A stretch of 64,000 nucleotides of DNA from Sipunculus nudus. Taxonomy: Eukaryota; Annelida; Sipuncula; Golfingiida; Sipunculidae. The DNA is taken from contig CM049318.1 of the NCBI GenBank assembly GCA_026874595.1, forward strand, positions 11,947,241 to 12,011,240, written 5' to 3'. Below, piece after piece: positions 2,148 to 61,072 of this stretch. A program made the translations under genes and the position numbers. The notes below the pieces were generated by a model. The model was not told the origin of the DNA and made no database searches. It was given only the letters and a program-made list of their open reading frames with translations. Each line of letters starts with the position of its first letter. The stretch's first letter is position 1.

Positions 2148-2148
2148 A

Positions 2149-4152: not shown

Positions 4153-4660
4153 AACAAGAACACTGCATAATACCCCCATCGCATATCTTGTGACCTTCAA
4201 CCTCATTAAATATGCATGAATGTTGCTGAGAATGTAATTTAGGTGAGAAACTGTATTGGTGAATATTCATAATAAATTTAATGAAAATCCATCAGATTTT
4301 TGGTAAATCAAAGTCTGGTACCTCTGACCTCATTTAAAATGCATGGATTTTGCTGGAAATTGAACTGAGGTGAGACATTATACTGATTAACATTTCTGTT
4401 GACTTTGATCAAAATCCATCCTATTCCTGGTGTGTTATCACAACAACCCCACAAAGCAGCCTAATATTGACTTCTTACCTTATTAAATATACATGGATTT
4501 TGCCCATAATCAAAATCAGGAGTGATAATCTGTTGGTAAGTATTTATGGTGAGTTCCGTGAAAATCCATTAAAGCCCTGGTAAGTTACTGTGACGACACA
4601 AAAAGTTAACGGATGGACAGACAGACCATGGGTATACCATTATACTTTCCATCATAGACA
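4153..4660 (+). mobile_element. Family E non-autonomous element, copy E1
   Basis: The element starts with AACAAGAACACTGCA (4153-4167) and continues with three diverged monomers of about 140 bp, starting near 4189, 4326 and 4471. Each begins with a tgacct-type phrase and an attaaatatgcatggatttt-like phrase. It ends in a short GGACAGACAGA microsatellite (4613-4626) and a small GGGTATA..TATAC inverted repeat (4630-4645). Copy E2 at 56311 has the same three unit types in the same order. The layout matches bivalve pearl/HINE-type rolling-circle derivatives; the class is an inference from structure. No coding capacity. Confidence 0.65.
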
Positions 4661-4757
4661 GGATTTTAAAAATTAAAGTAACACTCTTTGATTTTCTGCA
4701 AGTCACAAATGTACTCATCACAGGAGACAGTTCACCATAAATTCAATACTTACTAGA

Positions 4758-4970
4758 AACTGTCTGTGACACTTGAATAGTGTACCAGCCTGAGGTCTCT
4801 TTCAGGACAAAACTGTCTGTGACACTTAGATAGTGTACCAGCCTGAGGTCTCTTTCAGGACAAAACTGTCTGTGACACTTAGATAGTGTACCAGCCTGAG
4901 GTCTCTTTCAGGACAAAACTGTCTGTGACTCTTAGATAGTGTTCCTAGGGTGTGTTTCAGAATGAAATGG
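4758..4970. repeat. 53-bp minisatellite, four copies
   Basis: The phrase aactgtctgtgac recurs at 4758, 4811, 4864 and 4917, giving an exact period of 53 bp. The first three units are almost identical; the fourth decays after the shared start. A fainter fifth copy may begin near 4970. Confidence 0.9.
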
Positions 4971-5084
4971 TCTCTGACACTAAATATATTACCTGGAGTC
5001 TGTTTAAGTAGTGGAACAAAACTAAAATTGTTAAGCTGAAGTCATGACATTTACCATGCATATACCAGGGTATAAATAGTCATA

Positions 5085-9642: not shown

Positions 9643-9940
9643 CATACAGCAAGCTCAACATTTCACCGAGCTTACAGTTCACCGCTTGCCTGGGGCAAGT
9701 GAAAGTTCCAGAAAATAGTGGTAGGGCAACCTGAAGTCCCCTCTTACTTGCCCCACTGGGCAAGTGGTTACAACATAAACTTTTACCCAAGGCATGTAAA
9801 AGGATCTTTGTGTTCTTGAATACAACCCATAATCCATTGTAGGGCAAGTAAAAATTTATGTAGGGCAAGTTAAAGCTAGATATTACTTTCCCAACTAGGC
9901 AAGTAATTTCCAAAGTTAATGTCGACCCTGCATACAGCAA
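9643..9940 (-). mobile_element. Short inverted-repeat element F1
   Basis: About 270 bp (9653-9930) are the reverse complement of 41600-41858. Shared phrases include the gccttgggtaaaag-type segment, a ccactattttctggaact segment and several gggcaagt / acttgccc motifs. The right end carries GTTAATGTCGACCCTG (9915-9930), the counterpart of the TIR seen in F2; the left TIR is degenerate. A perfect 10-bp direct repeat, CATACAGCAA, lies at 9643-9652 and 9931-9940, as expected of a duplicated target site. This is a non-autonomous DNA-transposon-like repeat of unresolved superfamily. Confidence 0.7.
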
Positions 9941-12534: not shown

Positions 12535-12702
12535 TGTGTTTTTGCCCCCCTCATGTTATAAACACATGGATGTAAACAATATGAACAGCCTATATGCAGT
12601 GGGATCAGTGTTTTCTGGTCTATTTTAGTAAATTGTTCAACTGATTATCTTTATTTAATAAATGTCAGATATGAGAATAGGCCCCTTTAAACAAGGAATG
12701 AT
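12535..12702 (+). repeat. Dispersed repeat family J, copy 1
   Basis: About 160 bp align by eye with 16247-16405. Both begin with a C-run followed by atgttataaacacc/atgg, contain a ggtatcagtg/gggatcagtg block and a ttttggct/tctggtct block, and end with atgagaataggCcCCTTTAA. The terminal phrase also occurs at 24855-24870 and, less clearly, at 39870-39886. Element class unknown; no coding capacity. Confidence 0.6.
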
Positions 12703-14549: not shown

Positions 14550-15791
14550 AATTTGCAAAGGCTCGCATTACTTGGAATAGAGATTTCTAGTTGAGATTTA
14601 CTTTGTATTCTCTTAATTGACATTTAGTTTTATATGTATTTTGCTAACTGCCAGTTTCTAAAATGCATTGTGCTGCCTTATATTTATTCAAGAATGCTGA
14701 AAAAAATATATGGAATGATCCTCTGATACCATGAGTTATGAAAAATCAGAGGATTAAATATATATGAAATAAGTCCTTGAAAAATGTGTAAAGATTGCTC
14801 CTTGTATTTATGTAGTCAACCAGAATGTCCACAGCTGTATGATAGAGACTCCAGTTAAATATCAGAATACTTCAGTGAGAAAAGCAGATGACAGTGCAAT
14901 TTATATCAGTCAACGACAAAAATAAAAAGGACTGTCAGTGGCAATGACCATCCACTAATATTACACTTAAAAACAGCCAACTCTCAGTATGATTCATTTC
15001 TTTAAGAATTTCTGCCACTGAAAGATTATTGTTGGAGTTTAAAGTTTTTTTCTCATATCTGGACTGACAGATCCATTTGCAATGCAAACAAATTTTTAAA
15101 GAATCCTGCAAATTCCTATCTAGAATAACAGATTGGCTGGGGATGCAAATGAATTCTTCCACACTTTCTGCAAACCCAAGATTGGTGCGAGGGAATTATT
15201 GTATTTGTAGCCATTAGTGTTGGGATCAGCTTATTGGTTTTTCATATAAATTGCAGTTTGATTACGGGGAAAAAATAAACTGTCAAGTTTCAATATGAAT
15301 GAATTGTTGCAAGATTCCTGATCAAATCAAAAATTTTCTGGAAAATGTCTCCAGTTTTATCAACAGAAGTTTAATTTAATTTCTCAATTTGAATGAACAA
15401 CATTTCAAATTGATACAAATAGCCAATCATTTTGTGAACAACATGTTAGGACTTCTATTAAGGATGACGGCTTGGTTGTCCTTCCTTTTAATACTATCAG
15501 AATTAACAAAACTTGTATTTAATTATAGAATCAATTTACAGCCAGGCAGCATCACAAAAGTTCCTTCACAGTGTGGTACTATTACATCAGTATTTCTACA
15601 GGTGACAGATTACTACAGATCATTGAGTTTTATACAACAGTAGACCTGACAGGTGTCTCAATGGGTTTCAGTCAATCTACAGAAGTAAAAAACTGAACAG
15701 ACTGGACTTTTGACTGATGTCATTACAAATGCATTAAGTAAAACAGGGGTACTGTTTTCCGTCTGTGAGTTTGCATGTGTGTATCTGTAAG
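14550..15791. other. Unassigned A+T-rich sequence
   Basis: No gene, repeat or RNA structure recognised in this stretch. Confidence 0.5.
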
Positions 15792-16050
15792 TCCAGATGT
15801 GCTGTACTTAAAGTCCTTATTTGGTGTACTTAAAATCCATGTGGTGTATATATAGTCCTTATGTGGTGTACTTAAAAGTCCATATGTAGTGTACTTAAAG
15901 CCCTTATGTAGTGCACTAAAAGTCCATATGTGGTGTACTTAAAAATCCTTGTGGTCTATATTAAGTCCTTATGTGGTGTACTTAAAGTCCTTATGAGGTG
16001 CACTTAAAAGACGTAGTGTACTTTAAGTCCTTAAATGGTGTATATAATGC
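15792..16050. repeat. About 22-bp minisatellite, roughly 12 units
   Basis: Variants of TCCTTATGTGGTGTACTTAAAG repeat head to tail. Units alternate irregularly between tccttatg and tccatatg forms and vary in length from about 17 to 23 bp. The array decays at both ends. Confidence 0.9.
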
Positions 16051-16246
16051 CATATATTCACATGCCTATATAACTTAAGTGATTTCTGACTAACATATCA
16101 ATGAACTGTAGTTAATTCATGATCAGAAAAGTTGACATAATTGCACTGTGATGGATGTATGAGCTTGTTGTAAATACACTACACATGCCCATGCTGGCAT
16201 TTACTATAACCATGCACTAGCTAGCTGTTGTGGGTGAGAGATTTTG
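16051..16246. other. Unassigned
   Basis: Nothing recognised. Confidence 0.5.
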
Positions 16247-16405
16247 GTTGACCCCCCACATGTTATAAACACCTGGGTATATACAAAACAGAGAACTTGA
16301 TCACCATGGTATCAGTGCATTTTGGCTTATTTCTATTTATGGTTCAAGAGATTAACCATATTATATATATGTTAGATATATGAATAGGCTCCTTTAAGAG
16401 TCCCT
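16247..16405 (+). repeat. Dispersed repeat family J, copy 2
   Basis: Partner of the copy at 12535-12702, same orientation, with the same start (C-run then catgttataaacacc) and the same end (atgaataggctCCTTTAAG). Divergence is high, so both are old copies. Confidence 0.6.
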
Positions 16406-19549: not shown

Positions 19550-19863
19550 GTACACCACTAGTGTATTATCCCCTCACAACAAAGTTGCAGGAGGGGATAT
19601 AGTAACACCTTCATTTGTGGATCTGTCTGTCATGCCGTCCCTCCGTTCTTCTGTCTGTCCATCCAGAATTGGCTTCTGGATTAATTTTAAGCCAATTCAT
19701 TGGACCAAAACCTTAAATCTAATAAACACTTTGAAGGTCAAGGTTACAGGGTCAAAGGTCAAGGTCACAGAGCTACCCATGTAATTGTCACACATGTGTT
19801 ATACATCCAGTATAATAATGCTCTCGTGCTAGGGGATGCTCTGCTTTGCAGTGCCCTTGTTGA
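19550..19863 (-). mobile_element. Family H rolling-circle-like element, minus strand
   Basis: Read on minus, it starts near 19863 with AACAAGGGCACTGCA, almost the same start as family E, and has the 5' subterminal motif ATCCCCT (19831-19837). Near its 3' end is a GGAC/GGAT-type microsatellite (plus-strand 19637-19670, tccctccgttcttctgtctgtcc), then a strong hairpin: ATCCCCTC (19568-19575) pairs with GAGGGGAT (19591-19598), with CAAC/GTTG extending the stem inside. The hairpin repeats the complement of the 5' motif. There is no tandem monomer core, and at about 310 bp it is the most compact member of the set. No coding capacity. Confidence 0.65.
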
Positions 19864-21448
19864 ATTTTGAAGCTGACCTTGACACATGCTGGATCACCTT
19901 TAGTTTGTCTGTTTTTTTTCTGAAACTGACCGTAATGCACAGTCACAGCAGCTTAATCTGAGGGGGAGGCCCAAACCATCTGAAATATACAGCCATAGCC
20001 AGACAGATTTAATAAACGGTTGTGTATTTAGTTTAAAAACTGATCAGAGTGAACAAACCACTGAGATGATTTCATCTGATATGAAACCAACAGTAAATGG
20101 GTACATCCCCATTCATGCAGAGTTCACGAAAACAAAATTCCCTGTATCCCCTCCCCCCTTAGTTTCTCTGATAGATTTTCAAAATTCCAGCATAATTATT
20201 TCCACCAATTTCAAGTCTGAACCTCATCAAATGTGCTGAAGTGAACAATACATGCATTTAACATGAAGGAACAAAACAATGGTATGTAGAGCTTGCGGGT
20301 CACAATGTAACAGACTACCAGTATAACCACCTTCTCTTTGAGCCAATCCCTGACAGATTTGAGACAATTTTTCTCATATTTCATGATTTGAAAAAAGAGA
20401 ATCTCATTTTCCAGGTTTTTCCTTACTTCCAGACTGTTTTTGAGCCTTGGCCAAGGATCTGCTGTGAATCAGCCATTTTGCTGTAGAAGAGATGGCATGG
20501 TTTGAGCCAGTGGTCTGACAGCTCTAGGCTATGTCCTTGTACCAACATCTGATCACCGTGGACTTCAAACAACACTGATACAGGACAGAGTATACCCATG
20601 TCCCCATTAAGCTCAACAGACGGAGAATCTAGTAACTCCTCTAATCCCTTAATACCCGAGAACTGAGAAAACTTTGAAGTAGCTGCAGACACCCACGGGA
20701 CAAGACAAGGGACTTACTCTGGAAAGACAAAAATAGGTCGGATCAATTCTAGATAGAAGTACAGCATGGTACTCTATAAGACGGATCAGCTTCTTATACC
20801 AGTGTAACAGGATTAGCTTAAGGTGGATCAATTCTAGATGCAAGTGTAACAGGATTTTAAAACTCTCAGACTCAGTTTATCCTCAGATCAAAGTCCAGCA
20901 TCTTTATCATCTTGGGCTTCTTCAGTAGCATCATGTGACCAGTCTCATCCTCTGAATCAAGCCCTGCACAGTAATTTCTGATGAAGTTTGGAAAGTGTAT
21001 ATGATATTTAATTTTGAAGTCCTGTATATTTCATGTAGTCTTTGTTAAGTACCTAACCACTGGTCGTAAGTGAGCTGTACATATTTTTTTTTTTTAAGAT
21101 TATGGCCATGGACTGTAGGTGGCAGCACTGATTCATCAATGAGAATAAATGAAATGTATTTTCTAGTTCTTTTAGATTTTTTTGTTTCATATGATCAAGG
21201 GATTGACTACTCTAGTTACTGATCACCAACCAGACTATCCAACTTACACCTGACAGATGTAACTAGAATATCAGCAGAAGCTGACAAAAGCCCTCAACTA
21301 AAATAACAGTGTTTATAGGTTGTAACAGTAACAAGTACAAAATATTTGTTCTCTCATGGATGTATATTTGTATATGTCTCCGTTATAAATTTAAATGGGA
21401 CAGGTATGTACTATGTTTCCTAACAATCCACCATATGCTTTTAGAAGA
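19864..21448. other. Unassigned; AGGTGGCAG-containing phrase at 21116
   Basis: No gene is supported. At 21103-21125 the phrase atggactgtaggtggcagca resembles one at 24210-24232 (atggcctgttggtggcac), with A+T-rich sequence after both, so an old dispersed repeat may be present. Around 20725-20845 two copies of ggatcaattctagat lie about 90 bp apart. Confidence 0.4.
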
Positions 21449-22445: not shown

Positions 22446-23050
22446 CAAAAGCAACATCAACTGCAGCCACAAAAGTATATGTTGAAAATTACGAGTTTAG
22501 GATTCAGAGCAGTTGGTTAAGACAAGAAAGGCATCACAGAATTCTCTGTGGCAAAGGTTAAAATATTACACAGCACTCTGGATGTGATGGGAATTAAGTG
22601 TTCCCTGGACATTCAGCACCAAATCCAATACAGTAACTGTTAAGTATATGTCCTGTTCATCTACACACCTCTTTTTATCATTTTTATTTTTTGGTGTGCT
22701 ATCTATTCTTGTCTCTTGACCATCAAAACAGGCTCAAAATACAACATCTACAATAGATAGTCATTAATCATCGGACATATAACAGTGAGGATTCCCATAA
22801 TGCCTTGCATTCACTTGTTACTAGCTTTCAGACACTGGCACAATCATTCACAAGTAGGTTCTATTAGACACAGAGAATTAAATACACATTTGGTGATTAA
22901 TAAGGACAATTAGGAGGGCCATTCTATGAACCGTGAGTTTAATCAGAGCTGGTGCTTGGACCTGTCAGGATGCAGACTGATTAACGTGTATCAGCATTCA
23001 GAAACTTGTTTACAGACCAAATAAACACCCTGACCAAGATCTCTATCTTA
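22446..23050. other. Unassigned
   Basis: Nothing recognised. Confidence 0.5.
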
Positions 23051-41599: not shown

Positions 41600-41858
41600 C
41601 AGGGCTCGACATTAACTTTTGAAATTACTTGCCAAGTCGGGCAAGTTACATCTAGCTTTTACTTGTCATATATAAATTTTTTCTTGCCCAACAAATATAA
41701 TGGATTGTATTCAAAAACAGAAAGATCCTTTTCATGCCTTGGGTAAAAGTTTATGTTGGACCCACTTGCCTAGGAGGGGTCTTCTAGTTGCCCTACCACT
41801 ATTTTCTGGAACTTTTACTTGCTCCAGGCAAGGGGTTAACCGTTAATGTCAAGCCCTG
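41600..41858 (+). mobile_element. Short inverted-repeat element F2
   Basis: It is bounded by terminal inverted repeats CAGGGCTCGACATTAAC (41600-41616) and GTTAATGTCAAGCCCTG (41842-41858), which are complementary at all but about one or two positions. A 5-bp direct repeat, CAGTG, flanks it (41595-41599 and 41859-41863). F1 at 9653-9930 is the same family in opposite orientation. The CAGGG start is hAT-like, but F2 shows only 5 bp of duplication and F1 shows 10, so the superfamily is open. At 259 bp it is a MITE-like non-autonomous element. Confidence 0.78.
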
Positions 41859-43405: not shown

Positions 43406-44467
43406 ATTATGCTTGTACTTAGAATGTAGTGTCAGATACTGTTGATACAAGCACTGGTGTCTGGACCAATCTGAATAAATCTATGAACAAAACAGAAAAT
43501 GAACACAAAGGAAGATTTATACAAAATGTTTGCAATCAGGCAGTGTGATAGTCTGGTGCCCTTTCTAGAACCAAGTGTCACTTTTGGTATTTTTATGGTA
43601 TTTTCGGTGTATATTTTAGCCAGTGACAGTACATACCAAGTCAGTGAAACAACAATCCTGACATTCTAACCATGCAGCCACAAAAAAACTGAAAAGATAC
43701 GGTTAAACTCTGGCTTTAGGCGAGACATCAAGACAGGATTAAAACCCTCAGGGAACAATAGTGGCCATTTTGCCGCCATAAACTTATGATGTTTCAATAA
43801 ACCAATCAGTTTCTCTCACAATTTGCCAGAATCTTTCCAGGGCAGGGGTTGTGAGGTTTATCTGTTAGTGGGTATGACCCAGACATTCAGACTGGCCTGC
43901 CGGTCACCAGGGAACAATGTTTCACTTTGCACTTCCATAAGCACTTACTCAGATAGAAAACAAATATTTCTTACATTCAATCATAAAAAAAGTAAACTCA
44001 ACAATATCAGAAACCTTTTAAAGAAAATCCATCTAAAAGCTATCAAAGAAAATCCAACTGATAGCTATTAAATAATTTCAGATGTGAACCTATTGCTGAA
44101 AACCTTAATATACTGTGTATGCCTTTTTATTATCGAGGGTTTTCATTTCTCAATATTTGCCAATATAACATAATTGCAAATATGAAACCCTTGGGAACAT
44201 GATGCCCCATCAACTAAGATGAACAAGAGGGGATGATGCATCTGCACAAACAGACTACTACAACCTACAGTCTCAACCTAATCTGTGCATGGTATCCAAA
44301 CTGGCCCATGCATACAAGCATTAGTCATTTTTTAAAACGTCTGTTAATCACAAGATATATCGATTGACACCGGTCAAAGTAAATGACTGAACCAGAAATG
44401 AGTGAGGTACAGTAGGATTAATTCTAAATTTAGAACTAGAATACGGGTAGTCGACAAGCGACTACAT
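43406..44467. other. Unassigned
   Basis: No gene recognised. aacaagaggggatgatgc at 44222-44239 resembles the start signature of families E/H but is not followed by a recognisable element. Confidence 0.45.
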
Positions 44468-45335
44468 GTATCCGCCTAAATCAGAGTGGAACGGGTGATG
44501 TGAGGCATGGATTGAGTGGCAAGGGGAAATAGAGTTGCATATTAGCATGGATGTCTGCAGCCAAATTGTGTATGTAGGTTGCCCCCCCCCCCCCCACCAC
44601 AAAATCCAGAAAGCCGTCCAAGTTGTATACATATGCAAAATTTTAGGCAGATATGTCAAACCACTGCTGAGATATGAGTGATTTTATCCCATGGCAGACA
44701 AACAGACGGGAGCTGTGCAAAAATGGCTGCAGGTGGCACCACCAGTTTTGCGTATGATAAAGAGCTATGTGAGATCTATACTAATGCAAAATCTTGGCCT
44801 AATCGGTCAAACGGTTCCTGAGATATGAGCTTGAATGTCTGCAGTGTAAACGTGAATGTAGGTGGCGCCACCTGTCATAAAATCAGAAAAGCTATCCAGG
44901 ATGTATACGCATGCCGAATTTCAGGTGAATTAGTCAAGTCACTGCAGAGATATGAGTGATTTTAACCCAAGGCAGACAAACAGATGGACACTGTGCAAAC
45001 ATGGTTGCAGGTGGCGCCACCATTTTTTGTGTATGTTATAAAGCTCTCCAAGGGCTACATTTGTGCAAAAAAATTTTCCTGATCGGTCAAACAGTTCCCG
45101 AGATATGCGGGTTTATGTGTGGAAACAGACGCACAAACGGACGCAGAGCACAGAGGAAAGGTCAGAGGTCAAAACAAAATCTGGCGCAGCAGTTCACATG
45201 TGACCCGAACATAATCCCGGGTTTCGAAAAATTCTGCCCAGTGGTTACGTAGGAGTTCTCCGGACACCTACGCCGCGGCGGCGGTGGGCTGAAAACATAG
45301 TATCCGCAAAACTCTGTTTTGGCGGATACAATCAA
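44468..45335 (+). mobile_element. Family D rolling-circle-like element with dimeric monomers
   Basis: The 5' subterminal motif GTATCCGCC (44468-44476) is matched by a strong 3' hairpin at 45300-45329, arms GTATCCGCaAAAC and GTTTTgGCGGATAC. The core is a higher-order array: two related sub-units (about 150 and 130 bp) alternate with a dimer period of about 280 bp, with gcaggtggc-type starts near 44575, 44731, 44861 and 45010. The exact palindrome GGTGGCGCCACC is at 44861-44872 and 45010-45021 and a one-mismatch form at 44732. Between array and hairpin lies a CpG-rich stretch (45268-45290). The first unit carries a C14 tract (44582-44595). No coding capacity. Confidence 0.78.
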
Positions 45336-46086: not shown

Positions 46087-48651
46087 AACAAGTGGCCCAT
46101 GGGCCATGACGCTCAGCTGAATTCAAGGAATGTTGAACAATGAGCAAATTGAGTGCCAGAGTGCAAACAAATCATGAATTTTGTGAAAAGTCCTTAGAAA
46201 TGGGTTTCAGTGGGCTTTTGGACAGATGACAACTTCATTTGAAGGTCTCATAAATAGAGAAAAAATGCTTTAAAAATTGAAAAAAATACAGGTGGCGCCA
46301 CCAGTTTGCAGGAACTGATGGAACACTCCATGATCAATATGCCTGAAAAGAATCATGGAGATCAATGCATTGGTTATTCAGATACTGGAGTTTAAATTTG
46401 TATCAAATTTTTAATTATTCTGAGGGGTACTTACTACGAAGGATATGGGTAACAGAGACCTAATTTCATGTTTTCACAGAGACTTTTCATGAACCTCCCT
46501 TGATGTCAAGTAAGAAGAATCTAGGTCCTGCGGTTATGATTTGTGCCCTGTTAACAAATGACAACTTCTTTGAAGGTCTCAAAAATAAAGAAAAAAATTC
46601 GTAAAAATTGAAAAAAAATACATATGGCGCCACAAGTTTGCAGGAACTGATGGAACATCCCATGATCAATATTCATGCAAAGAATCATGGTGATCAATGC
46701 AGTAGTTATTCAGAGACTTGAGCTTTTGTATCAAATTTTGCATTATTCTGGGGGGTACTTCGGAGCCCCATAGCTCCAAGGATATAGGTAACAGAGACCT
46801 AATTTCAGGTTTTCAAGGAGATTTTTCATGGACCTCCCTGGATATTAAGTTTGAAGATTCCAGGTCCAATGGTTATGATTTGTGCCATGTTAACAGATGA
46901 CAGTTTCATTGAGGTTTGAAAAAAGAAAGAGAAAAAAAATTGCAAAAAAATTTGAAAAAAAATACAGGTGGCGCCACCAGTCTACAGGAAGTGATGGATT
47001 ATCCCATGATTAATATTCATGCAGAGAATCTTGGTGATCAATGCAGTGGTTATTTAGATACTTGAGCTTTTGTATCAAATTTTGCATTATTCTGGGGGAT
47101 ACTTCAGGGCCCCATGGCTCTGAGGTTTTGGGTAACAGAGACCTTATTTTCAGTTTCCAAAAAGACTTTTCATTGGCCTCTCTGCATGTCAAGAAAGAAG
47201 ATTCTAGGTCCACCCGTTATGATTTGTGCCCTGTTATCAGATGACCGCATCTTTTAAGGTATCAAAAATAGAGAAAGAAAATTGTAAAAATACAGGTGGC
47301 GCCACCAGTCTGCAGAACCTGATGAAATACTCCATTATCAAAATCCATGCAAAGAATCATGGTGATCAATACATTAGTTGTTCAGATATTTGAGTTTTTG
47401 TATCAAATTTTCATTATTCTGGGGGGTACTTCAGAGCCCCATAGCTTGAAGAATCTGGGTAACAGAGACCTAATTCCCGGTTTCCAAGGAGACTTTACAT
47501 GGGCCTCCACGCATGTCAAGATAGAAGATTCTAGGTCCAGTTGTTACGATTTGTGCCCTGTTAACAGATGACTGCATCTTTTAAGGTCTCAAAAATAGAG
47601 AAAAAAAATCGTAAAAAATCAAAATACAGGTGGCGCCACCAGTCTGCAGAAACTGATGGAACATCTCATGATTAATATGTATGCCAAAAATCATGACCAT
47701 CAATGATGTAGTTAATGAGATATTGAAGTTTTTGTATGAAATTTTTCACTATTCTGGGGGGTACTTTGGGGCCCCATAGCTCAAAGGATATGGGTAACAG
47801 AGACCTAATTTCTGGTTTCCATTGAGACTTTTCATAGGTCTTTCAGAATATCAAGAATGAAGATTCCAGGTCCAGTGGTTAATATTTGTGCCCTGTTAAA
47901 AGGTGTCCACATTTTTAAAGGTCCCAAAAATAGAGGAAAAAATTCGTAAAAAATCGAAAAATACAGGTGGCGCCACCAGTCTGCAGAAACTGATGAAACA
48001 TCTCATGATTAATAAGTATGCCAAAAATCATGACCATCAGTGGTGTAGTTAATGAGATATTGAAGTTTTTGTATGAAATTTTTCACTATTCTTGGGGGTA
48101 CTTTGGGGACCCATAGCTCGAAGGATATGGGTAATAGAGACCTAATTTCTCGTTTCCATGGAGACTTTTCATAGGTCTCTCAGAATGTCAAGAATGAAGA
48201 TTCTAGGTCCAGTATTTACGATTTGTGCCCTGTTAACAGATGTCCATATTTTTAAAAGTCTCAAAATTAGAGAAAAAAATTCATAAAAATCCACCAGACT
48301 GCAGAAACTGGTGAAACATTCCATGATCAATATCCATGCACAGAATCATGGTGATCAATGCAATAGTTGTTCAGATACTTGAGCTTTTGTATCAAATTTT
48401 CCATTTTTCTGGGGGGTACTTCGGAGCCCCATAGCTCAGAGGTTATGGGTAAAAGAGACCTAATTTCAGGTTTCCAAGGAGATTTTTCATGGTACTCCCT
48501 GGATGTCAAGTTAGAAGATTCCAGGTCCAGTGGTTACGATTTGTGCCTGGTTAACGGACAGACAGACGGACAGACAGACAGACAGACAGACGGACGACGG
48601 ACAAAGAGTGATCGCTATAGCTCAGATGACTTTCAGTCAGCTGAGCTAAAA
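46087..48651 (+). mobile_element. Family B element, copy B2, with about seven 335-bp monomers
   Basis: Left end AACAAGTGGCCCATGGGCC (46087-46105) with gCTCAGCTGA to 46120. The core is about seven head-to-tail monomers, 325-345 bp each. Each has an atggtgatcaatgca phrase, a tattctggggggtacttcggagccccatag-like phrase and a tacgatttgtgccctgtta phrase at its end. A GACAGACGG microsatellite (48556-48602) precedes the hairpin at 48619-48647 (AGCTCAGATGAC with AGTCAGCTGAGCT). Exact GGTGGCGCCACC copies are at 46291, 46967, 47295, 47629 and 47966. Sixty-codon frames recur in several units but the period is not a multiple of three. Ends and hairpin match B1 and B3; the core does not. Confidence 0.85.
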
Positions 48652-48902
48652 AATTGTATAAAATAATATGGCCATGGCCCCACAGCCAATCAGAGTTGGA
48701 CATATCATTCACTGTTGAGAAGTGTGTTAATGCTTAATGACCTTCATGCATATTAATACCTGGAATGCCTATAGCACTACAGTTGATTCCCTCCTGAGCA
48801 AAAGTATGAAACAAGTGGTGACACCTTTAGGTACCACTAGACAATTTGTGCATTTATCTGTTTCACTATACAGAAAACTAACCATATTAATCATTCAAGC
48901 TC
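48652..48902. other. Unassigned
   Basis: Nothing recognised. Confidence 0.5.
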
Positions 48903-51756: not shown

Positions 51757-52545
51757 GGACAAATCCATGGGTCATGACGCTCATCCAACTGACATGTTGA
51801 CAATATGTCCTAGCACAGGCAACCAATAAAGAAAATGTAGGATTTTAAGTTGGAAGATTCTAGGTGCAATGGTCATGATTTGTGCCCTGCTAATGCTTTA
51901 AAATAAAAAAAAAACGGGGCACCACCAATCTGCAGGAGCTGAATCCTTGATCAAAATGCATGAAAAGAATCATGGTGATCAATGCATTGGTTGTTCAGAT
52001 ACAGGACCTTTTGTATCAAACTTTTAATTATTCTGGGGGTACGTCTGAGCCCCATAGCTCAGAGAATATGGGTAACAGAGACCTTATCTCAGGTGTCAAA
52101 ATAGAACTTTGAGGAGCTCTCAGGATATCAAGTAAGAATGGGTCCAATGATTATGATTTGTGCCCTGCTTTGGTATCAAATTTTCAATAATTCTGGGGGG
52201 TGTTATTTATAAGCCCCATAGCTTGAAGACCTTATTTCAGGTTTTCAAAGAATCATGGCGACCAATGCACTAGTTTTTCAGATACTAGAGCTTTGTATCA
52301 AATTTTAAGTTATTCTGGGGGGGGGGGGGTACTTTTGAGCCCCATAGCTCAAAAGATATGGTTAACAGAGACCTAATTTCAGGTTTCAAAGGAGTTTTTT
52401 TCATGGACCTCCCAGCATGTCAAGTTAGAAGATTCCAGGTCTAGTGGTTACAATTTGTGCCTAGTTAACGGACAGTTGGACAGACGCCAGACAAAGAGTG
52501 ATAGCTATAGCTTAGATGACGTTCAGTCAGCTGGGCTAAAAACTA
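51757..52545 (+). mobile_element. Degenerate family B element, copy B4
   Basis: A decayed left end (caaatccatgggtcatgacgctcatccaactga, 51760-51792) is followed by about three eroded and partly deleted monomers of the B2 type (tattctgggggta..agccccatagctc). A short ggacagttggacag remnant precedes the hairpin at 52509-52537 (AGCTTAGATGAC with GTCAGCTGGGCT). The palindromic GGTGGCGCCACC is degraded to ggcaccacc at 51918-51926. A G13 tract lies at 52317-52329. Older than B2. Confidence 0.7.
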
Positions 52546-53150
52546 CAAACTGAACTAGAGAGAGATGTGAACACTTAAGTTAAAAATCTGTTTCAATAGG
52601 AAATAGTGGGGAGTAAAAGTGGGTATAAAAGATCTGACTTAAAGTTTAGAACCAAATAAGAATTCTGGAGAGGCCGACTTTTGGAGCTAATAATGAGCAT
52701 CAGTCAAGGCAAATATTTTTTTACTGCTGTACTTACTATTGTTTTATTAATATCTTAGGTATATCTGTAACTACAGGAATATGCCTTATGTTAACATCAA
52801 CAGTCATGAATCCTCAACAAGTTACCACATGACATATTGCACATAGATCCTACAGGAGCGGGTAATACCATCAAAGCTATTATCTCTACACTCAAGTACT
52901 GATCAACAGCCCCCAGGTTCTGACAAACAGCAGACACAACACACTGAGGTGTCTCAGGCTGATTATTAAGAGTTATCACAGTCCCTAGCTGGTGCAGATG
53001 ATCTGTCAGTGGATATACAGGCACACAATATCCCAGCAGACAAGTTATTCAAGGTGTGACTCAATTTTATTTTTGGCCTATGGACATTTAGTGGAGATGC
53101 TTAGGGTAGGAAGAAATGCTTCAAGTTTGGAAGGAAGAAATGTAAAAAAA
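52546..53150. other. Unassigned
   Basis: Nothing recognised. Confidence 0.5.
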
Positions 53151-54700
53151 ACTAGATGTGTCGGAACAACACGAATGCCCCCGCCTTGGGCAAATTAGAA
53201 AAATTTGTAAAATTTTTTAAGTTCAGGAGGTGTCTTATGGTCAAAAGTAGGTCAACAAGGGCAAAATGCAAACTCGATCTGTAACGGGTCATTATCAAGC
53301 AACACACCAAAAATCATGCCAATATATGCAGGCATTGTGAAAAAAAGTCCATACATGTGCATTTTCCATAAAAATTTCTGTCTTTCATGAAATTTTCTAT
53401 GTTTAGGAGCCGTAAAACAATCAAAAGTAGGTCAACCGGGATGAAATGCAAACTCGATCTGTAACTGTCATTATCTGCCCACACAAAAAAAATCAGGGTG
53501 GTATCTGCAGGCATTGAGGAAAAAAAGTCAGTACATATGCATTTGTTATGAAAATTTATATTTTTCATGAAACTTTCTATGTTCAGGAGCAGTCAAATGG
53601 TCAAAAGTAGGTCAACTGAGACAAAACAAAAACTCGATCTGTAACTGGTCATTATCTGCCTACACACCAAAAATCAGGCCCGTATCTGCAGGCACTGCGA
53701 AAAAAAGTCCATACATGTGCATCTTTTTATGAAATTTTCTATGTTAGAGCACCGTCAAACGGTCAAAAATAGGTCAACTGGGACAAAACATGAACTTGAT
53801 CTGTAACTGGTCATTATCTACCCACACACCAAAAATCAGGCCAATATCTGCAGGTATTGTGAAGAAAAGTCTGTACAAGTGTATCTGTCATGAAAATATA
53901 TATTTTACATGAAATTTTCTATGTTCAGGAGCCGTAAAACAGTCAAAAGTAGGTCAACCGGGATGAAATGCTAACTCCATCTGTAACTGGTCAATATCTG
54001 CCGACACACCAAAAATCAGGCCAATATCTGCAGGCATTGCGAAAAAAAGTCCGTACATGTGTATTTGTCATGAAATTTCATATTTTTCATGAAATTTTCT
54101 ATGTTCAGGAGCCATAAAACGGTCAAAAATAAGTCAACCGGGACGAAGCGCGAACTCGATCTGTAACTGGTCTATATCTGCCCACACACCAAAAATCAGG
54201 CCAATATCTGCAGGCATTGCGGAAAAAAGTCCATACATGTGTATATGTCATGAATTTTTCTATTTTTCATGAAAATTTCTAAGTTTAGGAGCTGTAAAAA
54301 AGTCAAAAGTAGGTCAACCAGGACGAAACGCTAACTCGATCTGTAACTGGTCTATATCTGCTCACACACCAAAAATCAGGCCAATATCTGCAGGCATTGC
54401 GAAAAAAAGTCCGTACATGTGTATCTGTCATGAATATTTCTATTTTTTATGAAATTTTCTAAGTTTAGGAGCCGTAAAACGGTCAAAAGTAGGTCAACTG
54501 GGACGAAACGCGAACTCGATCTGTAACTGGTCTATATCTGCCAACACACCAAAAATCAGGACAATATCTGCAGGCATTGCGAAAAAAAGTCCGTACAACT
54601 GTTTGATTTCGGAATGACGGAAGGACAGAAGGACGGAAGGACAGAATGACGGACATGGGTAAAACTATATGCCCCGGCCACTTTGTGGCGGGGGCATAAA
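53151..54700 (+). mobile_element. Family A pearl/HINE-like element, copy A1, 180-bp monomers
   Basis: Start ACTAGATGTGTCGGAAC (53151-53167), 5' subterminal motif ATGCCCCCGCC (53175-53185). Then about eight monomers: the gcaggcattg phrase ends at 53340, 53520, 53700, 53862, 54042, 54222, 54402 and 54582, a period of 180 with one 162-bp unit. Next come a GGAAGGAC microsatellite (54613-54653) and a terminal hairpin at 54669-54697 (ATGCCCC..GGGGCAT with GCCAC/GTGGC inside), then AAAAA. The hairpin contains the exact complement of the 5' motif. This layout is that of bivalve pearl and other Helentron-associated non-autonomous elements. No coding; frames up to 84 codons arise because 180 is a multiple of three. 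Confidence 0.88.
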
Positions 54701-56310
54701 AATGTTTGAAATGTCAGACAATTCTGTAGTGTTTGATTCCATACATAAAAGTATCAAAACAGGTGCATATTATCAATGAAATAAGACACCCACAAGACTA
54801 AATCCCCCTACTGAGGAGAAATAAAGAGAAATGTGTACTAAGGAATGTGAAATAAACTCAATAGACAGCTGTGTATATATTACAGTGGTGACACTGGGTT
54901 CTTTTCTGACATGCACATATGTTTTCAAAGTAATAAGGTATGATGGCAGAATAGAAATAAAAGTAAAATAAAATTTTTTTTTTATCTTGAGAAATTCAAT
55001 GTCAGATAATTCTTAAATCAAAATAACAGGACACAGAATGAGGTAAGAGGCAACAACCTCAGCTACGATTGTAACCAAAATACAAAGCAACACAGGAAAT
55101 GTCTGTCAATATTCAACAACTCCATTCACTAGTTAGCTCTATAACAATTGCTCTGGGCCTGGAAAAGGACAAAAGACAGGCGTATAGTCAAACCACAACA
55201 AGAGAATATATGCTGATGATCATTAAGGTTAACCCAACAACTTGTCTTGTTGTTCCTTTGGTGTTATCCTAACCCTGTAAAAAATTAAAATAAAATTCAT
55301 TCAGATCATTTTATAACAAACCATGGGTAAAACATAATACCTTTCACCACCTGTAGGTGGAGTACAAACCAGTCCTTAAACAGTCAAGGTCACTTGGGTA
55401 TTCCTCATACAAATTGAAAACAAACATGATTTGCATCAATATTTCTTGTCCCTGCTTCAAGATTATGAGTGAAATTTTGTAATTTTATAAAAAGCTTCAT
55501 ACATTTATTCATATCTGAGTAAATTAATCTTTCCTCCCCAGGATCATGTTACTGAAAAATAAATTATCTGAATCCTGTAATACTTATTATTAGTTTTATT
55601 ATAAACTGGTGAGGGCACCATTGGTCAACATGAGGAAAGCTGTGTGCAATGATATTAAAGTGTAATCCTCTGTTTTTTTCTAATTATGAGTTATGAGTCA
55701 TAAGTTTAACATATCATTCTTAATTATATATTATGAGTTATAATGAAGAGATGTAAGTGCTAAATCAATTTTATATTATAAAATGGTTCTAACCCTTGTG
55801 GAAAATTTTAAGATCACGAGACAGGCTATCATATCACTCAGTCTTGACCCTGGCAAAGACTTATGCTCAGGCAAGAGTGTTTAGTTTTCAAACAAGCTAA
55901 ACAGAAGAGGTAATCTCTCTGTCCTGTGGACCATTTGGCGCTGCATCTTTCATTATGTGTCATGGGAATAGCTGTCGCAGAAGCATAGCTTCATTTACTT
56001 GAGTCATCCCAAAAATGAAAAACTTTTACAATTTTTTTATAGATTTGACTTTTTCCCCACAAACATAAAGTGTTAGATCAATTTCAAATTTCAGGATATT
56101 CCCAAATGACAAGACTTAATATGTAATGGTTTATCCATACTCAATGGGATGAGGAATTCTTATTTTGCCCAGTGTAACTGATAATGTAATTTAATGATGG
56201 GTTCAGGAATATAAAATATCCAATTACATTTGACTGATAATATGGAACACTTTGACATGGATCAGGTACAAATTAATATCACTCAAATCCCACAATCTGA
56301 TAAAAATGTA
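54701..56310. other. Unassigned A+T-rich sequence
   Basis: 1.6 kb without a recognised gene or repeat. Confidence 0.5.
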
Positions 56311-56775
56311 AACAAGAGCACTGCAAATTGTGCGTAATATGCCCATCATGTATATGGTGACCTCTGACCTGATTAAATATGCACAAATTTTGCTAAGAAT
56401 GTAATTCAAGAGTGTCATCAAAATCCATAAGATTTTTGGAAAGTCCTTATGATCCCACCAAAGTCTGCTGACCTATGACCACATTAAGTATGCGTGGATT
56501 TTGCTGGAAATTAAACTTAGGCTAGATATTATATTCTCTTGAGATTTATCAAAATCCATCTTATTCCTATAGTAGTAATTGCAGTAACACCATAAAGTAG
56601 CCTAGTGACCTTTGATCAAATATGTCTGGATTTTTCCCATAATTCAACTCGGGCGAGATAATCTATTGGTAAGTAGTTTTGGTGAGTTTGGTGAAATTCC
56701 ATCAATGCCCTGGTAAGTTATCACACAGCAACACTAAAAGTTAACAGAGACATCACAGACGGCTGTATAATAAAT
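56311..56775 (+). mobile_element. Family E element, copy E2
   Basis: Start AACAAGAGCACTGCA (56311-56325), three monomers beginning near 56360, 56469 and 56608, a decayed microsatellite (catcacagacggc, 56750-56762) and no clear hairpin left. The units correspond one to one to those of E1 (gctaagaatgtaatt, gctggaaatt, tcccataatt variants), so the three-unit array existed before dispersal. Confidence 0.65.
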
Positions 56776-56837: not shown

Positions 56838-57451
56838 CAGGGTTGTTTGATTTAAATCATGTTAATTTAAATCGCCAATTTAAATCACAATTTAAATCAC
56901 TTGATTTTTTTTTTAAATCACTGATTTAAATAAACTTTTATTAAAAAATGATTTTTTTCTCAATTTTTCTCTTCTTTTTTTACAAATATTTTCAAGACAA
57001 TCATTTTCATTTTTAAACTAAGTGCTTCAGAGGCACTTGAAAAGAATGTTACACCCTCTTAAAGTCTGATTTAACAGTACTGTTTTTATTTTCAAAGATG
57101 TAAATGCAAACCCAATAAATAATCAACATTTTCCAAATGAATAAATATAAATAATAAATAACTTTCTGTAGGCTGAATTTATAAACTCATTTGAAGGAGA
57201 ATATTCAATAGAGGATATATAAAGTATTAAAGGGCGTACACCTGTCAAATACTTTTACATTAAGCTGAACTTTACTTGCTTGTGCAACATCAGTTAAAAG
57301 CATTTCCCGGCTATATGTAAGAATTTAATAATGGATAAGTTGCTAGGTAATTGCAACTGTCCAGCAATGCACAATGAGTGCATGCATATCATCATATGGG
57401 TTTCCATGAACTGTCCATCACTATAAAGCAAATAAATAATAATAAAATTAA

Positions 57452-58950
57452 AACAAGGGGCCCATGGGATACAGCACTCAGCTGAATTTTGTAAAATTTT
57501 AGCAAATGCAACATGAACTTACTTCTATTATTTTACATATATATTAGCATTTGAAAAGCTAAAAGGAAATTGCCTTGCTATTTTGTGATAATCAAATACT
57601 AAATATATGTATGCACACAAAATACCAGATGGCACTTTTTGGACTACAATAAATTTAAGATGCGGGAGCCTCTCATGATCAAATATTTGTAAAGCTATCT
57701 GTATTTTTACTATGTGAAAGTAATACGTTTTAAATGCCCACTATTAATATGTGAAACCCTGTAAAATATGGAATAAGGAAGGAAGTGGAGATCATCTATT
57801 GTATAATAATACAAATTTCATATACTGACTTTAATAAAGTACTGTAAAATAATAGAATTGTACATCTTCAAATGAGCATATACAAAATCTAAGAAGTATA
57901 TATTTTACTCTGTAATATACACTTTAAACCATTTAATCATGCAGTAAGGGAAAAAGGTTATGGGGCTAAGAGTTTACGTGTAATGTAATTAATAATTCTA
58001 AATACAGTTTAAAGATTAAATTCTAGGAAAGTGTGCCCAAATTCTTTATTGAGTATACCAGTAGTATGCATGGCAAGAGATTTTTATGGAATGCTGCACA
58101 CTTTTATAGCAAATACATCTTATGGGCACAATTAAATGTGTACTTTAACACAGTAAAATACTGGGGGAGCAGTAGGGGTGCACAGGGGAAGCCAAGCTGG
58201 ACCTAGTTGAAGTCTAGTAAAGATAGGCTGCCTGTAGTGAGGAGTGATTACATAACATTACCCACTACACACCACTGTTACACTTGGCTGGCTGATGTAA
58301 ATAATACTTGACATGGTGTCTCAAAACTTGAATAAAACCTACTATTTTCAATCAATTCCTTTGAAAAAGCAGATTAATTTTAAAAGAGTAAATCCTTATG
58401 TATACATGCTGTGAAAAATAAATCAACAGTGTGTACATGGTAAAAAACATGCCTTGGCCAAAGTTGGACAAAATTTTAAGTAATGATTTATTATTAATGC
58501 TTATTACTTAAGATATTGGCAAAAAGCAGATCTAATTTTGAGTACACAATTGAATCTTGATTAAATAAAGTTATATCCCTGAAAAAAGTCTCTAGCTTCA
58601 GCAGGTCTGATGTTAAATGGGTAAATATATTTCCTAATTTTTTACAAAGTGCATTATGTGTGGGCAGAATAATATGTATATTAAAATTGATAAAAAAAGG
58701 TAAATGGTGATGATATTAGGCAGACTTGAAGTGTAACAATGGGGTTTTAATGAAAAATTGAGGTTTTTCCTTAATATCTTGGGAAACTAAGACCTAGTGA
58801 CCCAATTTTCGGTATGGTAGGAGAATTTGGGGACATCTAACTATATGCAAAATTTGGGTTTTGTAGGTCCAATTAACGGGCAGCCAGGTGGACAACAGAA
58901 AAAGGACCATGACTATAGCTCAGATGACTTATAGTCAGCTGAGCTAAAAT
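57452..58950 (+). mobile_element. Family B element, copy B3, nested in the hAT element
   Basis: Left end AACAAGGGGCCCATGGGA (57452-57469) with CTCAGCTGA to 57485. The right 550 bp align with B1 (phrases gaggtttttccttaat, ggggacatctaac, ttttcggtatggtaggag). The hairpin at 58917-58945 is the same AGCTCAGaTGACT/AGTCAgCTGAGCT as in B1, then AAAA. The GGAC microsatellite of B1 is reduced here to a gggcagccaggtggac remnant. Confidence 0.78.
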
Positions 58951-59082
58951 CCTTTCTTTAGTGGAACATTCTGTAAAATATAACAATACACAATGTCCAA
59001 AAGTGTGCTTGACTACTATCATTGGTTTATATAGCTTATATTCTGTAAAGTATGACCTTAATTTTTTAATTTAAAAATTTAA

Positions 59083-61072
59083 ACTAGATGTGTCGGAACG
59101 ACACGAATGCCCTCGCCTTGGGCAAATTAGAAACATTTGTAAAATTTGGAAAATTTTTAAGTTAAGGAGGTGTTGTATGGTCAAAAATAGGTCAACAAGG
59201 GCAAAATGCAAACTCGATTTGTAACAGGTCATTATCAAGCGACACACCAAAAATCATGCCAAGATATGCAGGCATTGTGAAAAAAAGTCCAAACATGTGC
59301 ATTTTCCATAAAAATTTCTGTCTTTCATGAAATTTTCTATGTTTAGGAGCCGTAAAACAATCAAAAGTAGGTCAACCGGGATGAAACGCAAACTCGATCT
59401 GTAACTGTCATTATCTGCCAACACAAAAAAAATCAGGGTGGTATCTGCAGGCATTGAGGAAAAAAAGTCAGTACATATGCATTTGTTATGAAAATTTATA
59501 TTTTTCATGAAACTTTCTATGTTCAGGAGCAGTCAAATGGTCAAAAGTAGGTCAACTGAGACAAAACAAGAACTCGATCTGTAACTGGTCATTATCTGCC
59601 TACACACCAAAAATCAGGCCCGTATCTGCAGGCACTGCGAAAAAAAGTCCATACACGTGCACCTTTTTATAAAATTTTCTATGTTAGAGCACCGTCAAAT
59701 GGTCAAAAATAGGTCAACTGGGACAAGTGTATTTGTCATGAAAATATATATTTTACATGAAATTTTTCTATGTTCAGGAGCCGTAAAACAGTCAAAAGTA
59801 GGTCAACCGGGACGAAATGCGAACTCCATCTGTAACTGGTCAATATCTGCCGACACACCAAAAATGAGGCCAATATCTGCAGGTATTGCGAAAAAAAGTC
59901 CGTACATGTGGATTTGTCATGAAATTTCATATTTTTCATGAAATTTTTTAAGTTCAGGAGCCGTAAAACGGTCAAAAATAGGTCAACTGGGACAAAACGC
60001 GAACTCTATCTGTAACTGGTCTATATCTGCCCACACACCAAAAATCAGGCCAATATCTGCAGGCACTGCGAAAAAAGTCCGTACATGTGTATTTGTCATG
60101 AAATTTCATATTTTCATGAAATTTTCTATGTTCAGGAGCCGTAAAACAGTCAAAAATAGGTCAACCAGGACGAAACGCGAACTCGATCTGTAACTGGTCT
60201 ATATCTGCCAACACACCAAAAATCAGGCCAATATCTGCAGGCACTGTGAAAAAAAGTTCGTACATGTGTATTTGTCATGAAATTTCATATTTTTCATGAA
60301 ATTTTCTATGTTCAGGAGATGTAAAATGGTCAAAAGTAGGTCAACCAGGACGAAACGCGAACTCGATCTGTAACTGGTCTATATCTGCCCACACACCAAA
60401 AATCAGGCCAATATCTGAAGGCATTGCGAAAAAAAGTCCGTACATGTGTATCTGTCATGAATAGTTCTATTTTTCATGAAAATTTCTAAGTTTAGGAGCC
60501 GTAAAACGGTCAAAAGTAGGTCAACCGGGACGAAACTCAAACTCGATCTGTAACTGGTCTTTATCTGCCCACACACTAAAAAATCAGGCCAATATCTGCA
60601 GGCACTGTGAAAAAAAGTCCGTACATGTGTATTTGTCATGAAATTTCATATTTTTCATGAAATTTTCTATGTTCAGGAGCCGTAAAACGGTCAAAAGTAG
60701 GTCAACCAGGACGAAACGCGAACTCGATCTGTAACTGGTCTATATCTGCTCACACACCAAAAATCAGGTCAATATCTGCAGGCATTGCGAAAAAAAGTCC
60801 GTACATGTGTATCTGTCATGAATATTTCTATTTTTCATGAAATTTTCTAAGTTTAGGAGCCGTAAAACGGTCAAAAATAGGTCAACCGGGACGAAACGCG
60901 AACTCAATCTGTAACTGGTCTATATCTGCCCACACACCAAAAATCAGGCCAATATCTGCAGGCATTGCGAAAAAAAGCCCGTACAACTGTTTGATTTCGG
61001 AAGGACGGAAGGACGGAATGACGGACATGGGTAATACTATATGCCCCGGCCACTTTGTGGCGGGGGCATAAA
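59083..61072 (+). mobile_element. Family A element, copy A2, nested in the hAT element
   Basis: Start ACTAGATGTGTCGGAAC (59083-59099), 5' motif ATGCCCTCGCC (59107-59117, one change), about ten monomers of 180 bp, a GGAAGGACGG microsatellite (61000-61024) and hairpin 61041-61069 ending GGCGGGGGCAT. Its first 640 bp are nearly identical to A1 including the same atypical units. Near 59720 it lacks about 140 bp present in A1, and it has more monomers further on. The two copies thus come from one recent source with array expansion or contraction. Confidence 0.88.

Follow-up and report, generated by a model that had tools for sequence, protein, structure and literature searches.

Eleven repeat elements are spread over the window, the 64,000-nucleotide stretch of Sipunculus nudus contig CM049318.1 analyzed here (Table 1). 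Two of them lie within a larger element, which we take to be hAT-like from the lengths of its TIRs and target-site duplication (TSD). A Rep/helicase was sought in the window, and none of the 27 ORFs of at least 90 amino acids gave a Pfam match above the cut-off; tRNA and Rfam searches returned nothing. A sequence-only reading had described repeat families of different sequence built on one rolling-circle-like plan, and this description is largely real. Families A, B, D and H were found where they had been placed, with short inverted motifs at both ends, one of them within a hairpin, and the anatomy stood. The orientation, the supposedly unrelated cores and the 3' end of family C did not. A degenerate B-type 3' end had been overlooked; neither visual inspection nor the B hairpin pattern gave a convincing candidate for its 5' partner.

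Table 1. Positions of the repeat elements and their parts in the window
Feature	Position	Strand	5' hairpin	Tract	Interior	3' subTIR	3' palindrome	3' terminus	Remarks
HINE A1	53150-54704	-	54668-54698	GTCC/GTCY, 54612-54653	180-bp monomers, 53240-54597	53175-53185	53158-53172 (one mismatch)	CTAG	
HINE A2	59081-61074	-	61040-61070			59107-59117 (one change)	59090-59104	CTAG	layout as A1
HINE B1	29110-31039	-	31003-31033	ACGG, 30919-30987	30348-30915, core common to B4; ~29155-30347, not in B4	29134-29144		CTTG	
HINE B2	46087-48654	-	48618-48648	GACA, 48554-48603	seven 337-bp monomers, 46222-48555	46111-46120	46093-46106	CTTG	
HINE B3	51757-52545	-	52508-52538 (3 mismatches vs B1/B2/B4)		B2-type monomers	mutated		no CTWG	decayed
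HINE B4	57450-58954	-	58916-58946		58389-58873, core common to B1	57477-57485		CTTG	within hAT-like element
HINE-like C	21435-22446	-	~22419-22446	short GACA/GGAC, ~22380-22402	three 301-bp monomers, 21438-22374				
HINE D	44434-45331	-	45300-45329		~four 143-bp units, 44563-45120	44468-44476	44447-44465	CTAG	
HINE H	19566-19861	+	~19567-19597	GTCY, ~19624-19667	no tandem core seen	19831-19837	19841-19851	CTTG	
E1	4153-4660	-	unrecognisable	GTTAAC and short GGACAGACAGAC tract at 4605				CTTGTT	decayed
E2	56311-56775	-						CTTGTT	decayed partner of E1
B-type 3' end	2148-2181	-							degenerate
hAT-like element	56838-61154								CAGGGTTGTT TIRs; exact 8-bp TSD AGGACTGA at both sides; contains B4 and A2

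The layout of an intact element, read on the minus strand (plus strand for H), is a T, the 14-nt arm of the 5' subterminal inverted repeat (subTIR), a 3-nt loop, an imperfect inverted repeat, a GTCY tract, the core, the 3' subTIR, a 3' palindrome, CTWG and TT. This polarity is the reverse of the one first assigned. The "3' hairpin" of the sequence-only reading corresponds in the published convention to the 5' subTIR with its partial inverted repeat, and its "5' motif" to the 3' subTIR; the orientation of gene-less elements is called arbitrary by PMC2374699 itself. The palindrome outside the 3' subTIR, before CTWG/TT, had escaped notice, as had a 3' terminus common to E and H.

The end motifs proposed for A, B, D and H were recovered, with the reservations that B3 is mutated, A2 carries one change and H matches over just 7 contiguous bases. 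The subTIRs form perfect pairs of 11 bp in A1 and B1 and 10 bp in B2, with 9 bp in B4 and 10 bp in D, and are unrecognisable in E; the published range is 11-15 bp. No common sequence is evident among the subTIRs of A, B, D and H. The partial inverted repeat beside the 5' subTIR is present in A1, A2, B1, B2, B4, D and H, weaker in C and decayed in B3, and none was seen on inspection of E1 and E2. The 3' palindrome is clear in A2, B2, D and H and imperfect in A1, B1 and B4; none was seen in E1. The GGAC/GACA tract attributed to most elements is dense in A1, A2, B1, B2, B3 and H, shorter in C and E1, and degenerate in B4, D and E2. Families C and E had been said to follow the plan less completely. 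C has the 5' hairpin, tract and monomers, and a search for its 3' end and 3' subTIR found neither; E is decayed, with 71% identity between E1 and E2 along 468 bp. Tandem cores were confirmed in A, B2, C and D and are also present in B3. The core assigned to E reduces to a 93-bp pair at 71% inside E1, and a clear 53-bp array at 4757-4942 lies outside that element. A clear tandem array is absent from H, B1 and B4.

Folding gave a common hairpin in A1, A2, B1, B2 and B4 consisting of 8 bp, one mismatch, 5 bp and a 3-nt loop. D has a one-base bulge where these five have the mismatch, and the H hairpin is 9+4. Pairing of the 5' arm with the 3' subTIR was more stable than pairing with the inverted repeat in four of four elements computed, the gain being small in D (-13.9 vs -13.3). 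A structural scan, written with the elements already known, required a stem of at least 7, an inverse subTIR of at least 8 and CTWGTT 12-45 nt beyond. On the minus strand it detected five loci (A1, B1, B2, B4 and D), on the plus strand none; 200 order-2 Markov shuffles averaged 0.105 loci per strand and never exceeded 2. The scan misses A2, B3 and H. An earlier exact-word scan for motif and hairpin (140 rows on the two strands together; 20 shuffles gave 15.6 per strand) was replaced by this stricter one because AT-rich matches, many of them within tandem arrays, had swamped it.

CTWGTT is found at the 3' terminus of 9 of the 11 elements, the exceptions being B3 and C. The TSD check suggested in the sequence-only reading was run with a slack of 4 and without counting single-base runs, and no direct repeat of at least 4 bp was found at the ends of the seven elements tested. 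TT follows the terminus directly in all seven, with an exact boundary uncertain by a few T's. The T fraction by the 5' end is 0.2-0.6 (10 nt) against 0.30-0.33 for the window, so this side is not always T-rich; it is 0.5-0.8 on the 3' side. Inverted motifs at both ends and a lack of coding capacity would also be expected of foldback elements or cut-and-paste MITEs having subterminal inverted repeats, and DINE-1 and pearl are both described as formerly classed as MITEs. Assignment to these classes is very improbable: none of the seven elements has a TSD, whereas an exact one of 8 bp flanks the window's hAT-like element, and the ends are structurally unlike, with CTWG on one only. A canonical Helitron, which has 5'-TC and 3'-CTRR, inserts between A and T and lacks a subTIR, was rejected since the elements have a 5' T, a subTIR and a T/T site; the likeness is limited to the CTAG/CTTG 3' end.

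HINEs are non-autonomous Helentrons known from bivalves and Drosophila (PMC7492417, PMC2374699, PMC4067079). The pearl/HINE membership first suggested for the families is supported by the subTIRs, the partial inverted repeat, the GTCY tract, the central tandem repeats, the second palindrome, and the absence of a TSD and presence of TT in seven of seven elements. The GTCY microsatellite and central tandem repeats, a common and not obligatory HINE trait, are both present. It is highly likely that these are HINEs, Helentron derivatives without proteins of their own that move in trans by the route and with the ancestry proposed below. A Helentron Rep-helicase, assumed to be encoded elsewhere, would act on them in trans. 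By analogy with Helitron biology, Rep would most likely nick at the 5' T. One strand would be displaced, the 3' subTIR and palindrome would signal a stop at CTWG, and insertion of the freed strand or circle between two T's would leave no target duplication. The 3' subTIR could pair with the 5' arm across the base left unpaired in the local hairpin, and the ends may therefore be joined by strand exchange.

Among the closest likenesses in description is Cg_HINE of Crassostrea gigas, which shares the 5' subTIR, partial inverted repeat, GTCY/GTCC microsatellite, tandem monomers, 3' subTIR and palindrome, lack of a TSD, oligo-T sites, several families per genome and constant core orientation (PMC7492417). 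Its monomers average 140-180 bp, compared with 301 and 337 bp here. DINE-1 and the mite and mosquito HINEs, as described in PMC2374699 and PMC4067079, share a 12-15 bp subTIR, a partial or interrupted inverted repeat or palindromic subTIR, the GTCY microsatellite, variable central repeats, a 3' stem-loop and TT insertion. Their subTIR sequences are unlike those found here, and DINE-1 is said to lack a 3' CTRR-type terminus, whereas CTWG is present in these elements. C. gigas Helitron-like elements share the 3' CTAG and palindrome, and 257 of 751 have subTIRs and are called possible Helitron-Helentron intermediates (PMC7992393). According to the same account they start with TC, mostly insert between A and T rather than at the T/T sites seen here, and include only one subTIR-bearing element with a microsatellite, a feature that is usual here. 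The bivalve pearl elements CvA, CvE, CvG, DTC84 and MgE, by description in citing papers, likewise have modular ends, a microsatellite-like part and a short array of ~160-bp repeats, and the families differ in sequence and have a common layout. One BIV160 primer (PMC5139131) matched the window with 6 mismatches of 21 at best, and the other did not match within 7 of 25. Scans of viral contigs, one with the A hairpin and two with the B hairpin, gave no match.

The cores of B, C and D had been taken as unrelated and are in fact distantly related. B2, C and D have in common, on a single strand, a monomer segment of ~140 bp that contains a GGTGGCGCCACC box; the B2 monomer's other half recurs in B1/B4. 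All 10 plus-strand sites of the box (at most one mismatch) lie within the B2, C and D cores. The B2 profile matched D (E = 3.9e-5, 6.8e-5 and 4.4e-4) and C (E = 3.1e-4, 3.5e-3 and 5.3e-3), and the B1/B4 profile matched B2 (E = 4.6e-5) and D (E = 3.7e-4). The similarity among B2/C/D and B1/B4 spans ~80-140 bp. On the reversed window used as a control, none of six profiles had a match at E ≤ 0.01, the A profile reaching 0.013. All-against-all comparison gave 11 of 49 profile-target pairs at ≤1/1000 shuffles on the same strand (nine between families, two within B) and 0 of 49 on the opposite strand. The B2, C and D monomers are related, and the B1/B4 core is related to B2 and D. A search for the box as text returned one unrelated bacterial paper. 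Box matches in two viral contigs (53% and 57% GC) were dismissed as chance, since the profiles match only at the box and BLAST gives no match to the window; one of them, L001, was searched for tandem repeats and has none.

Several reciprocal tests were weak: 76/1000 for C against the first half of B2, 6/1000 for D against C and 20/1000 for D against B1/B4. The halves of the B2 monomer showed no similarity to each other, the first half did not match B1/B4 (334/1000), and the combined B2/C/D profile did not match B1 or B4 (47/300 and 41/300). Because these comparisons failed, the B1/B4-D match is the single pointer to a common origin of the two halves; the doubled unit at which it hinted was not upheld by the direct half-to-half comparison. 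The A-C link is short and AT-rich and the E-C link covers 28 nt (range of the two, 28-80 nt); these lengths, with the reversed-window score of the A profile, mean that A and E may be unrelated. Inclusion of the A and H cores in the shared unit was rejected, as neither the A consensus nor H obtains a forward score with the combined B2/C/D profile. The profile search does list two A monomers, at E = 1.7 and 2.2, and no core relative was found for H.

The argument for modular exchange drawn from unrelated cores in one frame fails as stated because the B, C and D cores are distantly related. Their kinship allows two readings, an exchange of units or derivation from a single ancestor whose terminal hairpins diverged. 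B, C and D, at the least, probably branched from a single lineage, in which the hairpins would have diverged in sequence and kept their shape and the cores would be related units in fixed orientation. Exchange would instead involve separate HINE lineages with fixed ends whose core units were swapped by recombination or filler-DNA capture, placing the same monomer pieces behind different ends. It concerns core history and is compatible with HINE membership. The B2 monomer, a C/D-shared segment joined to a B1/B4-shared one, would fit exchange, as would the agreement of B1 and B4 on the 5' side (69-86%) and over their final 34 nt (79%) and not in the ~1-kb interior, which BLAST left unaligned; core replacement, proposed between related ends, and double arrays are described in oyster HINEs (PMC7492417). 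However, an ancestral composite monomer with losses would give the same pattern, core orientation never differs among elements, and the resemblance between B1 and C extends beyond the core to the bases just after the inverted repeat (0/5000 shuffles, in a comparison that takes in part of the tract). The 5' context of D and H resembles that of other elements no more than by chance. Local alignment of the B1/B4 interiors scored 85, above the shuffle maximum of 83 (0/200), so a remote similarity there is possible. Exchange is a tenable alternative with chances clearly below even.

Independent origins, with families alike only since the same Rep needs the same end layout and with core similarity due to convergence or chance, would account for the dissimilar subTIRs of A, B, D and H and for the A, E and H cores without firm relation. 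PMC7492417 describes its group 3 as unrelated in all modules and views these elements as independently arisen families. The B2/C/D and B1/B4-B2/D similarity argues against this origin, being on the same strand over ~80-140 bp, down to 0/1000 shuffles, with none on the opposite strand, and makes it distinctly improbable. A rather unlikely joint reading is that HINE families with dissimilar hairpins assemble their cores from a limited stock of ~140-200 bp units, joined in composite monomers and always in one orientation. B2 would combine a C/D-like with a B1/B4-like unit, and the second half of C may be A-like. The fixed 8-1-5-3 hairpin, with a single unpaired base matched only by the opposite end, would then act as an inbuilt switch by which the local hairpin gives way to pairing between the two ends.

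Related monomers with element-specific subTIR changes are in print for Cg_HINE group 1 (PMC7492417), as is the interrupted inverted repeat for DINE-1. In the text of the papers, as distinct from figures and supplements, we found neither distantly related monomers behind dissimilar subTIRs nor a fixed place for the hairpin flaw. PMC7492417 ties each repeat cluster to one flank pair, whereas here distantly related monomers lie behind subTIRs without evident similarity. As far as we have seen, this arrangement and the common flawed hairpin, open to pairing by the opposite end, appear to be new. Oyster satellite DNAs are thought to spread within HINEs, and some HINE families are called independent since their modules look unrelated. 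Distant kinship among monomers whose ends are dissimilar suggests either a single old lineage or a common pool of units, and the shared imperfect hairpin offers a concrete idea of how Helentron ends may find each other.

The places that the sequence-only reading gave families A, B, D and H are borne out by the tandem arrays, by self-similarity and by the elements' own sequence. The analysis drew on the 64-kb window (GC 30-41% in 2-kb steps), the literature and scripts. Intact elements read, 5' to 3', T, a 14-nt arm of the 5' subterminal inverted repeat (subTIR), a 3-nt loop, an imperfect inverted repeat, a GTCY tract, the core, the 3' subTIR, a second palindrome, CTWG and TT. In this orientation every element except H lies on the minus strand. 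The architecture proposed earlier was the true layout, drawn back to front relative to the published convention for HINEs (non-autonomous Helentron derivatives), and it lacked the second palindrome found beyond the 3' subTIR in A2, B2, D and H. A G-C pair of the B2 palindrome is A-T in B1 and in the degenerate 2148 copy, with pairing kept; in B4 this pair is broken. Of the 11 elements inspected, 9 terminate in CTWGTT; B3 and C do not.

Repeat features of the window, with second palindromes and predicted 5' arm duplex energies (3' subTIR vs local inverted repeat, kcal/mol)
Feature	Position	HINE strand	Second palindrome	Energy	Remark
A1	53150-54704	minus		-18.4 vs -15.1	
A2	59081-61074	minus	GTGTCG-GAA-CGACAC		
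B1	29110-31039	minus		-16.1 vs -12.6	
B2	46087-48654	minus	TGGCCCATGGGCCA	-14.2 vs -12.6	
B3	51757-52545	minus			
B4	57450-58954	minus			
2148 copy	2148-2181				degenerate B-type 3' end
C	21435-22446	minus			
D	44434-45331	minus	GTAGTCG-ACAAG-CGACTAC	-13.9 vs -13.3	
GC-rich CGCCGCGGCGGCG stretch	45270-45289				in D, between 5' hairpin and core; none seen in other families
E1	4153-4660	minus			
53-bp tandem unit	4757-4942				3.5 copies, 97% matches, just past E1
E2	56311-56775	minus			
H	19566-19861	plus	CTGC-AAA-GCAG		
hAT-like element	56838-61154				
22/65-bp tandem array (AAGTCCTTATGTGGTGTACTTA)	15789-16055				no recognised HINE ends
GGAC/GACA-type words	20688-20713				short group, outside listed elements
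Inverted pair	9674-9932 / 41598-41843				~250 bp, 83% identity, outside HINE families
Dispersed 140-bp repeat	12545-12690, 16252-16397, 39482-39618				three copies, ~72% identity

Families C and E had been said to follow the plan less completely. Family C combines a weaker 5' hairpin and a short tract with three monomers of 301 bp; its 3' end was not found. E1 and E2 share 71% identity over 468 bp and a CTTGTT terminus, and E1 has a short tract; their end hairpins are unrecognisable. H and E end alike on the 3' side: the terminus is TGCAGTGCYCTTGTT in both H and E2, and E1 has one change more. The 22/65-bp array had no score against the combined core profile; by BLAST it matched E2 once, weakly (E 0.011).

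A structural scan, designed after the elements were read, required a stem, an inverse subTIR and CTWGTT; it recovered A1, B1, B2, B4 and D and no further locus on either strand. In 200 order-2 shuffles the same scan averaged 0.105 loci per strand and never exceeded 2. It misses A2 (subTIR one change), B3 (decayed) and H (7 bases). Target-site duplications, which the earlier reading had named as a finding that would refute its proposal, flank none of the seven elements tested (A1, A2, B1, B2, B4, D and H) at a length of at least 4 bp, with slack of at most 4 bases and single-base runs excluded. TT lies beyond the terminus in all seven. The T fraction of the 10 flanking bases is 0.5-0.8 on the 3' side and only 0.2-0.6 on the 5' side, where T's adjoining the A and B hairpins were assigned to the element. 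By contrast, the element that encloses both B4 and A2 has CAGGGTTGTT terminal inverted repeats (TIRs), an exact 8-bp duplication (AGGACTGA) and many GATTTAAATC palindromes near both ends. We take it to be hAT-like from its TIR and duplication length.

The 5' hairpin of A1, A2, B1, B2 and B4 consists of 8 bp, one mismatch, 5 bp and a 3-nt loop, and the A and B hairpins fold alike from sequences without an evident common part. The D hairpin has a one-base bulge where A and B have the mismatch, and the H hairpin pairs 9 + 4 bp. Duplex energies were computed with DNA parameters for A1, B1, B2 and D. In all four, the 5' arm is predicted to pair with the 3' subTIR through the flaw base, in a duplex stabler than that with the local inverted repeat. 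In these few elements the flaw would have a fixed place and be filled by the opposite end. Passages of PMC2374699 already describe a partial or interrupted inverted repeat in DINE-1.

Single-family core profiles were searched against the window. The best matches of the B2 monomer profile beyond B2 and B3 were three in D (E 3.9e-5, 6.8e-5 and 4.4e-4), with three also in C (E 3.1e-4, 3.5e-3 and 5.3e-3), all on the plus strand. The B1/B4 profile matched B2 (E 4.6e-5) and D (E 3.7e-4). Six profiles gave no match at E ≤0.01 in the reversed window, though the A profile reached 0.013. An all-against-all comparison (7 profiles, 7 targets, 1000 dinucleotide shuffles, both strands) placed 11 of 49 same-strand pairs at ≤1/1000 shuffles and none of 49 on the other strand (lowest 4/1000). 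One-way pairs were B2 first half to C, C to D and B1/B4 to D; two-way pairs were B2 first half with D, B2 second half with B1/B4 (within family B), C with A and C with E. The reverse comparisons of the one-way pairs were weak, with 76/1000 for C to B2 first half, 6/1000 for D to C and 20/1000 for D to B1/B4. The B2/C/D alignment spans ~140 bp around and past the GGTGGCGCCACC box, and all 10 plus-strand sites of this box (≤1 mismatch) lie within B2, C and D cores. Because profile matches link B2, C, D and B1/B4, the earlier description of the cores as unrelated does not hold for B, C and D. For A and E that description is unproven, their matches to C being short, AT-rich and given no weight; H, which had no relative in the profile comparisons, may still have an unrelated core.

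The D core is approximately a tandem of about 143-bp units, and the D-like part of the C monomer lies in its first half. Within the 337-bp B2 monomer, profile positions ~35-177 are C/D-like and ~217-333 are B1/B4-like. These two parts show no resemblance when compared, and the C/D-like part has no match in B1/B4; they are therefore best treated as two unit types. The B1/B4-D match is the only sign of a possible deeper link between them. B1 and B4 are 69-86% identical in the 5' part and 79% in the last 34 nt. Their ~1-kb interior gives no BLAST alignment, and its local alignment score of 85 narrowly exceeds the 200-shuffle maximum of 83.

The bases common to B1 and C after the inverted repeat, which include part of the tract, were matched in 0 of 5000 shuffles, and the values were 68/5000 for A1-B1, 52/5000 for A1-C and at least 506/5000 for the remaining 7 of 10 pairs. 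These common bases favor a shared ancestry of B and C, with hairpins that have since diverged; a possible alternative is that core units were exchanged between elements. GTTAAC is present at 5 of the 11 junctions inspected, directly ahead of the tract in B2, B3 and E1 and no more than ~10 bases away from it in C and E2. It is absent from the junctions of A1, A2, B1, B4, D and H, of which B4 reads ATTAAC. The window has 28 copies of GTTAAC, several at ends of B2 monomers.

The module order matches that published for oyster Cg_HINE (PMC7492417) and DINE-1 (PMC2374699) and is close to that of mite HINEs (PMC4067079), in the passages concerned. According to PMC2374699, 5'/3' naming is arbitrary for elements without genes. 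The PMC7492417 passages describe many HINE families in one oyster genome: group 1 with related repeats and element-specific subTIR changes, group 2 with related flanks and unrelated repeats, and group 3 with all modules unrelated. Repeat orientation is fixed there, cut-and-replace of cores is proposed, and no autonomous partner had been related to the oyster HINEs. Because these families, unrelated modules and core replacement are described, the headline of six families in a pearl/HINE layout and the exchange hypothesis are known in kind. Distant monomer relatedness behind dissimilar subTIRs was not met in those passages. No autonomous partner was recognized in the window, where none of 27 ORFs (≥90 aa) had a Pfam match above cut-off.

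The observation is real: the window carries several neighboring HINE families, well preserved and for the most part ordinary. Its two modest points of interest are the common core units and the complementary flaw predicted in the hairpin.
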